From a virus: a stretch of DNA of 37,007 nucleotides. Each line of letters begins with the position of its first letter. The stretch's first letter is position 1. The stretch lies in IMG/VR virus record IMGVR_UViG_3300010379_000018, positions 1 to 37,007 of that record. One strand, written 5' to 3'. Shown piece by piece: positions 10,355-15,850 of this stretch. Position numbers and translations under genes: made by a program. The notes below the pieces were generated by a model. It worked only from the letters and a program-made list of their open reading frames with translations. It was not told the DNA's origin and made no database searches.

Positions 10355-12074
10355 TGACCGTCCGAAGATCTGGCACGAATACGCGCTCGACGTTCTCGCG
10401 GACCGGATCCGATCGAATAAGCTCGTGCGCCTGGCCTGCGATCGTTATCTTGACGATCTTGAGCACGCCGGCGAGCGCGGCCTGCGCTTCGACGCGGTCC
10501 GCGCCGAGCGCGCGATCCTTTTCTTCGAGCTCTTCCTCTGTCACTCCAAGGGCGAATGGGCCGGCCGTCCGTTCGTGCCGGATCCCTGGGAGCAATTCAT
10601 CCTCGCGAACCTGTTCGGCTGGATCCGCGCCGACGGGACGCGGCGCTTTCGCGAAGCCTATATCGAGATTCCGAAGAAAAACGGAAAGAGTACTTTTTGC
10701 GCCGGGATCGGGCTCGAGATGCTCGTCGCCGACGGCGAGCCAGGCGCGGAAGTGTACGCCTTCGCCACCACGAAGGACCAGGCGAAGATTATCCACGAGG
10801 AAGCCGTCCGAATGTGGGAGAAGTCTGAGAGCTTGCAGCGGCGCGTCGGAAAGTTTCGCAATAACCTGCACGTCCGTTCGTCGAATTCCAAGTTCGAGCC
10901 TCTTTCCAGCGACGAGGGAACAAATGACGGCCTTAATCCGAGCTGCGGACTTGGCGACGAGCTGCACCGTCATCCGACTAACGCGCTATGGAATCTAATC
11001 TCAATGTCCGGCGCATCCCGCCGGCAGCCGCTGATGATCGGGATCACGACGGCCGGGACGGATCGCGTGTCGTTCTGCTATCAGCAGCACGACTACGCCG
11101 AGAAAATTCTCAATCGCGTCCTCGAGAACGACTCTTTTTTCGTCTATATATCCGCGATGGATCTCGACGAGAACGGATCCTGGCGCGATCACTGGCAAGA
11201 GCCGGAACAATGGGAACGCGCCAACCCGAGTTATGGGCGGTCGGTCAAGGTCGACAAGCTGGAAGAGGAAGCACGTCAGGCGAAAGATCAGCCGACGATG
11301 CTCAACGATTTTTTACGCTTCCGGCTCAACGTCTGGACGCAAGGATCGAACCGCGCGCTCTCGCCGGAAAAATGGCGGCTCTGTACCGGCGAACTGCTGG
11401 ACGGCGAGACGCCGCAGCAGGTACTCGAGCGCTGGAAGCGCGAGCTCGTCGGCTGCCGATGTTACGCCGGCCTGGACGCTGCGACGGTCGACGACGTCGC
11501 GTCCCTGGTCCTCTATTTTCCGAAGGCCGACGACAATCCTCACGCGCGAGTGATCCCTTTCTTTTTCTGTCCGGCCGAAGCGATCCTCGAACGCTCGAAA
11601 AAAGCGCGCGTCCCTTACGACGTCTGGAACGAGCAGGGATTCATAACGATGACGCCGGGCCAGGTCATCGACTACAAGGCGATCCGTCAAACCTTCCTCG
11701 ACTGCAACGAGCAATATCAGATCCTCGAGACCGGCTTCGATCGTTACGAAGTTTCTCAGCTCGTGACGCAGCTCGAGGAAGACGACGGTCTGACAATGGT
11801 CCGTGTCGGACAGGGCTTCGTCGGGATCTCGGCCGCGACGAAGGAATTCCTCAAGATGGTCGTCGCGTCGGAATTCTGGCACGGCGGAAACCCGGTCCTG
11901 ACCTGGATGGCCGACAATTTCGTGACGCGCAGCGATCCCGCCGGTCTGATAAAGCCGGACAAGGAAAAGGCGCGGGAGAAGATCGACGGGATCGTCGCCT
12001 TTATCGACGCGATCAGCCGCTCGATCGCGCAGTCGCTCGAGGACGACGACGCGCCGGCGGTCTATAGACTATGA
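10245..12074 (+). CDS. terL: Terminase large subunit (P27-type), start uncertain
   Basis: 609 residues if the only upstream canonical start, ATG 10245, is used, but its first ~36 residues (Arg/Ser/Thr-rich) are read from within terS and look non-native. Family-like sequence begins at about residue 41 (KIWHEYALDVLADRIRSNKL). Walker A is IPKKNGKST (142-150), and the Walker B-like CGLGDE is at 234-239. C-terminal RNase H-like nuclease residues include YAGLDAATVDD, LETGFDRYEVSQ and the late DGIVAFIDAI. The ATPase pumps DNA and the nuclease cuts it. No ATG, GTG or TTG lies in frame between 10245 and 10425. An ATG at 10354 has ideal TGATG coupling but is one base out of frame, so a one-base deletion just after it, an ATT start at 10332, or +1 shifting are alternatives. 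Confidence 0.93.
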   Translation: MTRANTRRRKQTTRSSASSRRRTPSASPAIQEKSRTDDRPKIWHEYALDVLADRIRSNKLVRLACDRYLDDLEHAGERGLRFDAVRAERAILFFELFLCHSKGEWAGRPFVPDPWEQFILANLFGWIRADGTRRFREAYIEIPKKNGKSTFCAGIGLEMLVADGEPGAEVYAFATTKDQAKIIHEEAVRMWEKSESLQRRVGKFRNNLHVRSSNSKFEPLSSDEGTNDGLNPSCGLGDELHRHPTNALWNLISMSGASRRQPLMIGITTAGTDRVSFCYQQHDYAEKILNRVLENDSFFVYISAMDLDENGSWRDHWQEPEQWERANPSYGRSVKVDKLEEEARQAKDQPTMLNDFLRFRLNVWTQGSNRALSPEKWRLCTGELLDGETPQQVLERWKRELVGCRCYAGLDAATVDDVASLVLYFPKADDNPHARVIPFFFCPAEAILERSKKARVPYDVWNEQGFITMTPGQVIDYKAIRQTFLDCNEQYQILETGFDRYEVSQLVTQLEEDDGLTMVRVGQGFVGISAATKEFLKMVVASEFWHGGNPVLTWMADNFVTRSDPAGLIKPDKEKAREKIDGIVAFIDAISRSIAQSLEDDDAPAVYRL

Positions 12075-12367
12075 CGCCGCGACGAGCAAGGTCGGCGAAG
12101 CCGCCGAATGCGCGAGCTCGTCACAGCGAAGGAGCGGATCCGCGTGACCGGAATCTGATGACGGCCGAAACGAAAGAAACGAAAGAAACGAAGAAAGGGC
12201 CGGACCGGCTCGAGCTGCTTTACTGGTCCGGATCCGCGCTGATCGTCATCGGCCTGGCGCTCGGAGGTCCGGACGGCTTCGAGCGCGCACTGATCGCTGC
12301 CGGCTGCAGCTGCCTGGTCTTTCCGGTCCTCGGGATGCTCAGCAGCTTCGTCAAAGGGATCCGCTGA
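12071..12367 (+). CDS. Two-span membrane protein after terL
   Basis: 98 residues from ATG 12071 (ATGA overlap with terL), or 69 residues from ATG 12158 (MTAETKETKETKKGPDRLEL). The first part is Arg/Lys-rich and disordered; the repeated GAAACGAAA units encode TKETKETK. Then come two membrane helices: LLYWSGSALIVIGLALGGP and ALIAAGCSCLVFPVLGMLSSF. No family recognised. Small membrane proteins between terminase and portal are uncommon in HK97-type operons. Confidence 0.65.
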   Translation: MTPRRARSAKPPNARARHSEGADPRDRNLMTAETKETKETKKGPDRLELLYWSGSALIVIGLALGGPDGFERALIAAGCSCLVFPVLGMLSSFVKGIR

Positions 12368-12368
12368 A

Positions 12369-12689
12369 ATGTATTGCGAATGTGGCTGCGGTCGAGCTAG
12401 TCCGGTTCCGGTCGTGACGAACCGCACTCTAGGCCGCGTCGCCGGCGAGCCGTTGCGATTCCGCGGCATCGAGTTCCGCTTCGCATCAGTGCGGGAACTC
12501 ATTCGGGAGATAGGTTATCGACCGCAGGGGTCGAGTCTTGATCGCATTGAGGCTGACGGCCACTATGAGCTGGGGAACGTCCGCTGGGCGACTAGGAGCC
12601 AGCAGCAGCGGAACAAGAAAGTGTTCAAGATTCCGCCGCGATGTAGGGCGACCGGCCGATTCACCAAATCCAGTGAAAGGGGGGCCTGA
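12369..12689 (+). CDS. HNH-type protein with internal deletion (remnant)
   Basis: 106 residues from ATG 12369. The N-terminus CECGCGRASPVPVVTNRTLG with GEPLRF is the front of HNH proteins that begin C-x-C-G-C-G. The C-terminal SSLDRIEADGHYELGNVRWA with TRSQQQRNK is their conserved end (S-x-D-R-I-x-x-x-G-x-Y-x-x-x-N-V-R-W-A). Family members have about 30-40 residues in between (a Tyr/Arg/Gly-rich stretch ending in GGRGI). Here PLRF joins directly to RGIEFRFASVREL, so the middle seems deleted in frame. The first catalytic His is therefore missing. It is likely inactive or a reduced DNA-binding protein, the relic of a homing-type nuclease inserted between terL and portal. Confidence 0.65.
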   Translation: MYCECGCGRASPVPVVTNRTLGRVAGEPLRFRGIEFRFASVRELIREIGYRPQGSSLDRIEADGHYELGNVRWATRSQQQRNKKVFKIPPRCRATGRFTKSSERGA

Positions 12690-12696
12690 TCCGCAA

Positions 12697-12771
12697 ATGG
12701 GACTGATCGCAGAACTTCGCACGTCGCTCGAGAATCCTTCGACGCCGCTCTCAACCCCTGCGGAATGGTGA
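12697..12771 (+). pseudogene. Detached 5' end of the portal gene
   Basis: ATG 12697 opens a 24-residue frame, MGLIAELRTSLENPSTPLST plus PAEW, ending at TGA (12769). A GAAAGGGGGG purine run lies upstream. The sequence has the style of HK97-type portal N-termini (short hydrophobic start, S-L-E-N-P-x-x-P-L). The missing continuation, LLDIFVGGRTDSGIRVSE, is found in the frame of the portal body from about 12819 to 12872, where there is no canonical start codon. A palindromic element (12766-12814) lies exactly between the two parts and brings in the stop. I infer that portal originally ran from 12697 to 14579. Confidence 0.7.
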
Positions 12772-12814
12772 CCCGTCCCCTGCTCTAGCGAGCGGGGGAC
12801 AGGGTCACCACTCC
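12766..12814 (-). mobile_element. REP-like palindromic element inside the portal gene
   Basis: Near-perfect hairpin over 12766-12810. TGGTGACCC (12766-12774) pairs with GGGTCACCA (12802-12810). GTCCCC (12775-12780) pairs with GGGGAC (12795-12800). T12781 and G12794 form a wobble pair. GCTC (12782-12785) pairs with GAGC (12790-12793) around a TAGC loop. The only bulge is A12801, giving about 20 bp of stem. On the minus strand the palindrome is preceded by GGAG (CTCC at 12811-12814), the tetranucleotide that marks REP sequences mobilised by REP-associated tyrosine transposases (RAYT). It splits the portal coding sequence and introduces a TGA and a TAG. No RAYT gene is in the window, so the donor would be the host chromosome. 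Confidence 0.75.
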
Positions 12815-12872
12815 CAGATTACTTGACATTTTTGTTGGAGGAAGAACTGACTCGGGGATCCGCGTCTCGGAG

Positions 12873-14579
12873 ATGACGGCGCTGCAGGTCTCGACGGTCT
12901 TCGCCTGTGTCTCGCTGATCGCCGGCGCCGTGGCGGCGCTGGACCTGCACATTTTCGAGCGCACGATCGACGACGCCGGCCGGGCCGCGAGAAAGATCTC
13001 TTACGATCACGATCTTTATGACGTGCTCGAGCATCAGCCGAATCCGGAGATGACCTCGGTCACTTTCCGGAAGACGCTGCAATGTCACGCGCTGCTGTGG
13101 GGCAATCTATACGCCGAGATCCAGCGCGACAAAGGCGGCCGCGTCGTCTATATCTGGCCGCGGAATCCGAACCGCTGCCGTCCGCGGCGTCTGACGCAGC
13201 CGCGACTCGTCGGCGACGAGAAGCTCGCGGCCGGCGAAGTCGTCTACACGACGACCGAGGGAATGGACGACGTCCAGCTGGATCCGGATCACGAGGTCCC
13301 GAACGAAGGTCCCGAGCGCGTCATCAATCCGAAGGACATGATTCATATCCCAGGCCTGGCGATCGACGGCCGGCTCGGCCAGTCTGTGATCCAGCTCGCG
13401 CGGAATGCGATCGGCCTCGCGCTCGCGACGGAAAAGTTCGGCGGGAAGTTTTTCGGGAATGGCGCAGTCGGCTTCGGCGTGCTCGAGTATCCCGGCCAAA
13501 TGACGCCGGAAGCGCGCGAGAAGTTTAAGCAGTCATTCTCTGAGGCCTGGGGCGGCGAGAACGCACATCGGCCGCTCGTGCTCGAAAAGGGCATGAAGTA
13601 CACGCCGACCAGCACAAAGCCGAACGAAGGTCAATTTATCGAGTCGCGGCGCTATCAGAAAGAGGAAGTCTGCTCGCTCTTCGGCGTCGCGCCGCACATG
13701 ATCGGCGAGACGGAAAAGACGAACCGCGCGAACACTGAGCAGCTCGGGACTGAGTTCGTAACCTTTACGATGCGACCGTGGCTGCGCGCCTGGGAGCAGG
13801 AGCTCAAGCGGAAGGTACTGCCGACGCCGGCGATCGGCCGCAGCGCGTCGCGTTACTTCCTGGCGAGCTTCGACACTCGGCCGCTGACGATGCCGGACGC
13901 CGAGAGCCGGCGCGCCTTCTACTCGAGCGGGAAGCAGTGGGGCTATCTCAATACCAATATGATCCTCGCGATGGAAGGCCTCAATCCGGTCGAGGAGCCG
14001 TGGGCGGACACATTCTGGATCCCGATCAATATGCAGAACGCGGCGCAGGCCTACAACGAGCCGGCGCAGGGGCCAGGTCCCGCGGATCCGAACGCCGCCG
14101 GCCAGGACGATAAGGTCGGCGATCGCTTCGTCCGGATCTTTTCCCGCCTGTTTCGCGATGCTTTCGGCCGAGTTTTGACGCGAGGGAAGGCCGATCCGGT
14201 CGTCTTTCGGCGTGCTTTTTTACCCGTTTTTTGCTCGATCGGCGAGGAGCTAACGGGCCTGGCCGGTGAGCAACTGGTCCCGCGCTGCAGTGTATGCCAG
14301 GGCCGCGGCAAGGATCCCGCGGATCGGCGCGTCAAATGTCGCGAATGCCGCGGCTCGGGACTGCAGGAATTCGAGCGCGAAGGCCTCGAGGAGTCGCGCT
14401 TCCTGGCCGACTATATCGCCGGCATGACGTCACGCTTTCCGGAGTGGCAATCAGCGAACGGTAACACCGAGCAAGTCTGCGAGCACGAGCTGCGGCGCGC
14501 CGTCCGCGCGATCGCGATCGAAGTTTACCGCTCGATGGCGACGGCCAGGGCGAAACGGTTAACGGAGGGAGAGCCATGA
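12873..14579 (+). CDS. HK97-type portal protein (N-terminally truncated)
   Basis: 568 residues from ATG 12873, an internal methionine in TDSGIRVSEMTALQVSTVFA; the true N-terminus was probably at 12697. The core matches HK97 portals: TALQVSTVFACVSLIAGAVA, TFRKTLQCHALLWGNLYAEI, GIxI-type dimer/clip region, GVAPHMIGETEKTNRANTEQ (in the conserved G-V-P-P-x-x-x-G stretch) and TRPLTMPDAESRRAFY near the C-terminus. Portals form the dodecameric DNA channel at one capsid vertex. Beyond the usual end there is an extra ~150-residue tail with two CxxCxGxG units (CSVCQGRG and CRECRGSG), a DnaJ-like zinc pattern. ATG 12873 has GGAG directly adjacent and no spaced ribosome-binding site, so expression may be poor. 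It overlaps the protease gene by ATGA. Confidence 0.9.
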   Translation: MTALQVSTVFACVSLIAGAVAALDLHIFERTIDDAGRAARKISYDHDLYDVLEHQPNPEMTSVTFRKTLQCHALLWGNLYAEIQRDKGGRVVYIWPRNPNRCRPRRLTQPRLVGDEKLAAGEVVYTTTEGMDDVQLDPDHEVPNEGPERVINPKDMIHIPGLAIDGRLGQSVIQLARNAIGLALATEKFGGKFFGNGAVGFGVLEYPGQMTPEAREKFKQSFSEAWGGENAHRPLVLEKGMKYTPTSTKPNEGQFIESRRYQKEEVCSLFGVAPHMIGETEKTNRANTEQLGTEFVTFTMRPWLRAWEQELKRKVLPTPAIGRSASRYFLASFDTRPLTMPDAESRRAFYSSGKQWGYLNTNMILAMEGLNPVEEPWADTFWIPINMQNAAQAYNEPAQGPGPADPNAAGQDDKVGDRFVRIFSRLFRDAFGRVLTRGKADPVVFRRAFLPVFCSIGEELTGLAGEQLVPRCSVCQGRGKDPADRRVKCRECRGSGLQEFEREGLEESRFLADYIAGMTSRFPEWQSANGNTEQVCEHELRRAVRAIAIEVYRSMATARAKRLTEGEP

Positions 14580-15850
14580 TCGAACGCAGATTTTTCCGTC
14601 AGGGGACGCAGCTGCGCGCGAAAAACGAAAACGGCAAAAAGAGCCTCGACGGCTATGCTGCCGTATTCGGCGCGCAGTATGACAACGGATGGTTTATCGA
14701 GACGATCAAGTCGGGCGCCTTCGGAAAGGTCCTCGGATCGACTCCGGACGTTCGCGCGCTTTTTAATCATAATCCGGACCACGTTCTCGGTCGCACGAAG
14801 AGCAAAACACTGACGCTCGATCAGGACAATAAAGGCCTGCACTTTAAAAACGATCTGCCGGCGACGCCGCGCGGCGACGAAGTTCACGCGCTGGTAGATC
14901 GCGGCGATATCGACGGCTGCAGCTTCTCGTTTATTCCGTCGCGTCAGACCTGGCGGGAAGAGCCGGATCCGAACGATCCGAAGCGCAAGCTGCTTTTCCG
15001 CGATATCGAGGAGTTCGAGCAGATCTTCGACGTCGGTCCGGTCACTTTCCCGGCATACGAAGACACGTCCGTGCAGGCGCGATCTTTACAGCTCGTGCGC
15101 TGCTTTCCCGAGGGGCTGCCGGCCGAGATTCGGAGTCACGTCCCTGGGATCGCCGCGGTCTTGACTAGGGCGGGCGGCGGCGACGGCGACGATATCAATC
15201 CGAGCCTGCGCGCCTGCCGCTGCAGCTGCCGCGCGTGCTACTCGGCCGAGTGCAACGAATGCGATCAGCACATGGCGGACTGCGGCGACTCTGAGCGCTG
15301 CGATCACACGAACGACCAGGACCGCAGCCGACGCGCCGACGGCAAGAAGACCAAGCGCGTCGACGGCGAGGACCTGCCGGCGTCGTCTTTCCTCCATGTC
15401 GGCGATCCCGAGAAGACCGCGACCTGGTCGTTGCCGTGGAAGTTCTCGACGGTCGCGAAGATCAAATCGCATCTGCGAAACGCGCTCGCGCGATTCAATC
15501 AGACGAAAAACATTCCCGCCGACAAAAAGGCCGGCGTCTGGAAGAAGCTCGTCGCGAAGTGCAAAAAGTACGGCGTCCAGGTCTCGAGCGAAGAGTCGAA
15601 GGCCTGGGGATTCACGGCCGAGCAGCGCGCAGACGTCCGCGGCCTGATCGGATCCGGCGACGAATGCCAGTGTGATTGTCCCGAGTGCCAGGTCGGAAAC
15701 CATACCGAGTGCTCGGAACCGGACTGTCAAGGCCTCGAGGACGGATGGAACTGCGACCACGAGGAAGACGACGAAGATTCCGAGCAGGACTCCAAGCCGA
15801 TGACGAACGAAACCGCGCAAGCGCGGCTGCGGATCCTGCTGGCCGAATAA
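14576..15850 (+). CDS. HK97-type prohead protease (S78) fused to a Cys-rich C-terminal module
   Basis: 424 residues, ATGA overlap with portal. Residues 1-175 are the serine protease that trims capsid and scaffold: SLDGYAAVFG, the His in FNHNPDHVLGRT (H65), the Ser in DIDGCSFSFIP (S116) and FDVGPVTFPAYEDT. From ~212 a Cys cluster (CRCSCRACYSAECNECDQH) leads into a separate helical domain (about 264-336: DGEDLPASSFLHVGDPEKTA, then SHLRNALARFNQTKNIPADK) found fused to or near phage proteases. A second Cys/His cluster (CQCDCPECQVGNHTECSEPDC) and an acidic tail follow. The usual family length is about 180-250, so the C-terminal half is an addition. Metal binding by the two clusters and a scaffold-like role are inferences. 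Confidence 0.88.
   Translation: MIERRFFRQGTQLRAKNENGKKSLDGYAAVFGAQYDNGWFIETIKSGAFGKVLGSTPDVRALFNHNPDHVLGRTKSKTLTLDQDNKGLHFKNDLPATPRGDEVHALVDRGDIDGCSFSFIPSRQTWREEPDPNDPKRKLLFRDIEEFEQIFDVGPVTFPAYEDTSVQARSLQLVRCFPEGLPAEIRSHVPGIAAVLTRAGGGDGDDINPSLRACRCSCRACYSAECNECDQHMADCGDSERCDHTNDQDRSRRADGKKTKRVDGEDLPASSFLHVGDPEKTATWSLPWKFSTVAKIKSHLRNALARFNQTKNIPADKKAGVWKKLVAKCKKYGVQVSSEESKAWGFTAEQRADVRGLIGSGDECQCDCPECQVGNHTECSEPDCQGLEDGWNCDHEEDDEDSEQDSKPMTNETAQARLRILLAE

Follow-up and report, generated by a model that had tools for sequence, protein, structure and literature searches.

In one phage lineage, represented by the IMG/VR virus record IMGVR_UViG_3300010379_000018 (37,007 bases; this whole record is referred to as the window), the gene for the HK97-type portal protein is interrupted after codon 24 by a hairpin insertion of exactly 50 nucleotides (nt). 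The most likely route of expression, to which we assign a probability of roughly 40%, is restart of translation at an internal AUG (12873). The window encodes a siphovirus-like gene set of small and large terminase, portal, prohead protease, capsid and connectors, together with tail tube, tape measure, tail fibre and ParB. Relatives of the portal in genome collections were found mostly in metagenome-assembled genomes of Acidobacteriota, which fits an acidobacterial-type candidate host for the phage.

A hairpin insertion interrupts the portal gene

The portal gene was compared with 84 gap-free portal relatives, which were gathered with an N-terminal query and served as the comparison set for both the join and codon usage. 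The motifs PAEW and LLDIF are contiguous in all 84 relatives; in the window, the insert begins with TGA and closes the 24-codon frame from ATG 12697 at once, and the portal resumes in another frame at TTA 12819 (LLDIFVGGRTDSG / LLDIFVGGRTDSGIRVSE...). The portals of L003 and L004 are uninterrupted (...PAEWLLDIFNGGRTDSG), and for each of five relatives the alignment of its portal to the window starts with residue 25 at 12819. The insert occupies 12769-12818 or 12770-12819, one base being ambiguous. The uninterrupted form in the relatives counts for insertion into a formerly intact portal, and alignment, which places the join at 12768/12819, thereby bears out a preliminary description of this DNA, which had proposed that a hairpin was inserted in the 5' end of the portal gene, that the sequence from 12697 was homologous to portal N-termini, and that the frame was disrupted. 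The 49-bp element that it delimited needs correction: the insert measures 50 nt, and the TGG at the foot of the hairpin belongs to the native portal gene and lies outside the insert. As for the added stops that it described, TGA ends the first frame, but only a single stop, TAG 12786 in the hairpin loop, stands between ATG 12765 and the portal in the downstream portal frame.

The insert is also present in a second contig, L002 (7,652 bases, 99.97% identical), which differs from the window only by two adjacent substitutions at 14847-14848, and a one-off assembly error is therefore unlikely. An assembly artefact or chimera might be suspected in a metagenomic contig with a strong hairpin, which is error-prone in sequencing; however, the same 50 nt occur in two contigs that were assembled separately, the join is clean and at a single site, and such an origin is very improbable. 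A search of other portals of the family (GAG-TGG forms) for inserts of 34-64 nt at the corresponding position gave three chance matches only. A Bryobacteraceae locus (L123) that matches only up to W24 was rejected as a chance match rather than an interrupted portal.

The hairpin has a folding energy of -50.2 kcal/mol (z -9.5), and none of 200 shuffled sequences was as stable. Pairing extends beyond its base, where native portal bases CTG.GGA pair with the 3' tail of the insert, TCC.CAG. On the minus strand, GGGAG lies 5' of the hairpin at 12811-12815, as the preliminary description had noted for both the near-perfect hairpin and this motif, and most of GGGAG pairs with native portal bases. Pairing of the two arms is imperfect at a bulge and a G-T pair, and the hairpin is the only palindrome of its kind in the window. 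A terminator was rejected for want of a T-run directly after the stem, and a group I intron or other RNA family for want of an Rfam match.

Table 1. Coordinates of the interrupted portal gene, the insert and neighbouring features
Feature	Position	Strand	Remarks
Portal codons 1-24 (MGLIAELRTSLENPSTPLSTPAEW)	12697-12768	+	24/24 positions colinear with relatives' N-termini; stop TGA 12769
50-nt insertion	12769-12818	+	Absent from 84 relatives; identical copy in L002
Near-perfect hairpin	12766-12810		20 bp, one bulge, TAGC loop; further pairing out to 12758-12817
Inner stem-loop CCCTGCTCTAGCGAGCGGGG	12778-12797		Differs at one position from a palindrome present in many copies in acidobacterial genomes
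Arm GGTGACCCTGTCCCC	12795-12809	-	Plus-strand motif GGGGACAG (12795-12802) fits the terminal inverted repeat (TIR) consensus GGGGWSAS of RAYT-like TIRYT elements
Portal codons 25-36	12819-12854	+	Rewritten silently to rare, A+T-rich codons; contains GGAGGA 12837-12842
Portal core, HK97 type	12873-14579	+	568 aa; internal ATG (codon 43); AUGA overlaps stop of another frame
HNH (homing-type) endonuclease gene	12369-12689	+	106 aa; phrog_3377, E 1.8e-10; between small upstream gene and portal

Restart at AUG 12873 as a possible route to portal protein

The 568-aa open reading frame (ORF) contains the complete portal core domain according to both Pfam and TIGR models (PF04860, E 3e-95, profile positions 1-321 of 321; TIGR01537, positions 5-342 of 343). 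For the intact relative L004, an AlphaFold model gives residues 1-40 a predicted local distance difference test score under 50 and places the first ordered helix at residues 40-64; because the model is ordered only from residue 40, M43 lies at the edge of the portal core. We propose that a palindrome resembling a repetitive extragenic palindrome (REP) of an acidobacterial-type host inserted after portal codon 24 in this one lineage. The insert ends the first frame at once with its TGA and shifts the remainder out of frame; ribosomes would restart at the native AUG of codon 43, producing a portal whose core is whole but which lacks residues 1-42, a flexible arm. On this view, the only use of the 24-codon upstream frame would be to deliver ribosomes to the vicinity. 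The proposal calls for neither a Y1-type transposase nor REP arrays in the window. Terminase, protease and capsid each form a single frame when the proteins of five relatives are aligned to the window, and the connector genes are continuous too; because these other head genes are continuous, the phage looks viable.

Several observations weigh against this proposal. The lost arm is nearly invariant from E6 to S41 in 42 homologues, and because few parts of the protein are so well conserved, its loss should cost fitness. ATG 12873 lacks a properly spaced ribosome-binding site, since GGAG abuts it and GGAGGA lies 30 nt upstream, in agreement with the preliminary description. The codons just 3' of the insert were under protein constraint while they diverged, at least before the insertion (see below). 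Furthermore, the whole palindrome, searched for strictly, had 0 matches in a collection of 84,980 species genomes.

That a full-length portal is not conventionally readable could also mean that the insert kills the gene, and that the contigs come from a defective prophage or a dead subpopulation with its other genes as yet undecayed, possibly complemented by intact relatives. The high conservation of the arm, and the replacements V30 and T20 that break near-invariant columns, would agree with a dead gene; however, the continuity of the remaining head genes, the fact that the interrupted form is what assembles (two contigs, two adjacent bases apart), and the bulge and G-T pair between the arms, which hint at an insert of some age provided that it was originally perfect, weigh against this explanation, which is rather unlikely. 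The general prophage decay raised in the preliminary description is rejected for the head module on the grounds of that same continuity. Alternatively, translation restarting at ATG 12765 or GTG 12768 would meet a single stop, TAG 12786, and read-through of it would give MVTRPLL-X-RAGDRVTTPRLLDIFVGG..., but a check for TAG reassignment that covered tRNAs of the window found no suppressor tRNA, and the conserved SLENP...PAEW arm would be replaced; this route has only a slim chance of being correct.

Origin of the insert

We infer a REP-like origin of the insert from its inner stem-loop, which is identical at 19/20 positions to a dispersed palindrome of two Acidobacteriota genomes, and the insert is probably REP-like. 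In a set of 396 Acidobacteriota genomes screened for repeats of the arm and the inner stem-loop, the inner 20-mer occurred within two mismatches in 46 copies in G057 and 119 in G016 and was found 0 or 1 times in each remaining genome, and the reversed pattern gave 0 in both. Within three mismatches, G057 had 57 places versus 1 for the reversed control. BLAST of 61 nt against Acidobacteriota returned weak matches only, G057 having several at the inner stem-loop. The acidobacterial units, gaCCCCGCTCTnGCGAGCGGGGct(T/G)GGA, stand singly or in short tandems and share with the insert the position of the four-base loop; at their foot they read gaCCCC...GGGGct(T/G)GGA in place of a GTAG/GGAG-type tag. 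In both draft genomes (L223-L232 and L244-L252), this 20-bp palindrome is partly tandem at a spacing of about 34 nt.

The flanks of the acidobacterial repeats do not continue into the GGTGACC arms of the insert. The arm 15-mer had three single matches and no multi-copy family in the 396 genomes, a looser form of the palindrome gave no multi-copy family in Acidobacteriota, and BLAST of the 61 nt found nothing in plasmid and phage records. In viral contigs, the arm 15-mer was found at 21 places, mostly one chance match each. One of these is a tandem case: a viral contig (L030:1-90) carries a tandem 53-nt repeat, GGGGGACAGGGTCACCTGTGTCACGCC..., over a gene end, with no transposase noted. The match of the inner 20-mer, which is palindromic and G+C-rich, could also reflect convergence.

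The preliminary description had regarded the element as a REP mobilised by a RAYT transposase, and this claim is upheld in part: the copies of the inner stem-loop support the REP-like reading, but RAYT mobilisation is unproven, as the whole palindrome was found neither in the 84,980 species genomes nor as a repeat in about 400 Acidobacteriota genomes, and neither draft genome with the inner repeat has a match to PF01797 (Y1_Tnp). RAYT-like genes are common in Acidobacteriaceae (52/60). Of some 40 acidobacterial Y1 genes inspected, none has the arm sequence at its flanks, and their TIRs (CGGGGACAGACGGAA among them) have only CTGTCCCC in common with the arm. Acidobacteriaceae RAYT-like Y1 genes in the loci L140-L166 have flanking REPs of the TAGCCCAGGC-GCCTGGG type, and another group in these loci is flanked by TIRs such as CGGGGACAGACGGAA or GGGTGCCCC. 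Di Nocera et al. gave the TIR consensus GGGGWSAS for RAYT-like TIRYT genes, acidobacterial ones included (PMC3733652). The insert resembles RAYT REPs and TIRYT TIRs in being a short palindrome, of which the inner stem-loop matches a dispersed, multi-copy one; it shares with RAYT REPs the near-perfect hairpin, and with TIRYT TIRs the consensus motif in its arm. The mostly paired GGGAG at its minus-strand 5' foot may correspond to the unpaired GTAG/GGAG-type tag of RAYT REPs. In contrast to RAYT REPs, the whole element was not found as a repeat in the genomes searched, no Y1 transposase was detected in the two genomes with the inner repeat, and the insert sits in an essential phage gene; unlike TIRYT elements, it is a single palindrome in the window and not one of a TIR pair flanking a tyrosine transposase gene. 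For these reasons the insert is not assigned as a RAYT-mobilised REP. The preliminary description regarded REP insertions inside essential phage genes as not known from earlier work; intragenic REPs have been described in bacteria (PMC3733652).

A recoded tract, an HNH gene and the parallel with T4 gene 60

Immediately 3' of the insert, portal codons 25-36 have a G+C content at third positions (GC3) of 0.25, whereas the 84 relatives average 0.79 and reach 0.50 at the lowest; in this phage, only 41 of 7,337 windows of twelve codons are as low. These codons are rarer in synonymous usage than those of all relatives (rank 0/84), codon 25 is UUA, which 0/84 relatives have there, and codons from 37 onward are ordinary. 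Compared with the family consensus, the tract has nine silent differences and one replacement (N30V), and simulated non-coding divergence gave so few replacements in none of 200,000 trials (P < 1e-5); because nearly all changes are silent, the tract must have diverged under coding constraint. T20 and V30 are unique changes at near-invariant columns, one on each side of the insert. The pattern fits co-conversion with a homing event, selection for a landing or restart zone free of structure, or acquisition from a relative outside the sample.

The HNH gene lies between the portal and the small gene that follows the terminase (12071-12367), the usual upstream neighbour of the portal. In at least 20 relatives the HNH gene is absent, 20 of them having a gap of only 5-38 bp between these two genes, and by this comparison the HNH gene is a lineage-specific insertion. 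Five other relatives (L042, L044, L052, L056 and L060) have unrelated stretches of 137-300 bp, also without an HNH gene, between the small gene and the portal, and this interval is a local insertion hot spot. The HNH protein lacks about 46 residues (Y..W...RC.NPN...YGG) that are kept in four homologues, and because this conserved segment is missing, the endonuclease is probably defective. A repetitive protein is also encoded at the contig start (17-505), by an ORF of repeated short units, several stretches of which match the same families, one of them HNH-like (phrog_7091).

The HNH neighbour and the recoded tract were absent from the preliminary description, and both bring in a parallel with phage T4, where gene 60, whose 50-nt gap is bypassed, lies next to mobA, an HNH gene that is apparently defective (PMC3014915, PMC5009743, PMC2988022). 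By analogy, ribosomes may take off at codon 24 or slightly earlier, pass over the hairpin and resume at UUA 12819, and the HNH gene and the 50-nt insert may have arrived as a cassette, with the insert and the rewritten tract shielding the site from the nuclease; we consider both the hop and the cassette doubtful. As in T4, an essential gene is interrupted in its 5' part by a 50-nt gap containing a hairpin, a stop stands beside the take-off codon, the resume codon is UUA (Leu), the gap is absent from relatives, and an apparently defective HNH gene (compare mobA, PMC3014915) is inserted next door; the silently rewritten codons and the unique changes on both flanks of the insert also favour a hop. 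However, the in-register join (UGG/AGA) has no matched take-off and landing codons, and the nearest matched pairs, ACC/CCU at 12754-12759 and ACU/CCC at 12810-12815, are out of register and would give a 56-nt hop that replaces the invariant A-E-W by R. Moreover, no KKYK-like nascent peptide is encoded in codons 1-24, the hairpin is stronger than that of T4 and far stronger than needed, its inner part resembles a host repeat, the HNH gene did not split the portal gene, and the insert is confined to one lineage.

Two further systems offer partial parallels. In the mycobacteriophage Corndog, tmp has an HNH insertion upstream of it, and its 5' part is translated non-canonically (PMC4351075), a precedent for an HNH gene immediately preceding a structural gene that has no usual start for its 5' part; in Corndog, however, peptides demonstrate translation of the upstream region, and there is no 50-nt hairpin insert. 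The bypassing inserts of Magnusiomyces mitochondria (PMC5009743) are likewise short and break the frames of essential genes, but they are mitochondrial, numerous in each genome and independent of context. The full proposition, that this is a second natural HNH-linked 50-nt bypassed insert, independent of T4 and derived from a host REP-like palindrome, in the essential portal gene of an uncultured soil phage, is a long shot.

Implications

Altogether, the REP-like reading of the insert is partly supported and the T4-like reading is an open lead, and the significance of the insertion is moderate unless bypassing is shown. Were ribosomes to cross the insert, this would add a second case of large-gap bypassing in phages; host palindromic repeats would then be possible raw material for such gaps, and the origin of the T4 case would become testable. 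If neither bypassing nor restart takes place, the record would capture a host-repeat insertion that is lethal yet fixed in a phage contig. A simple restart at AUG 12873 would mean that an HK97 portal can do without its highly conserved N-terminal arm.
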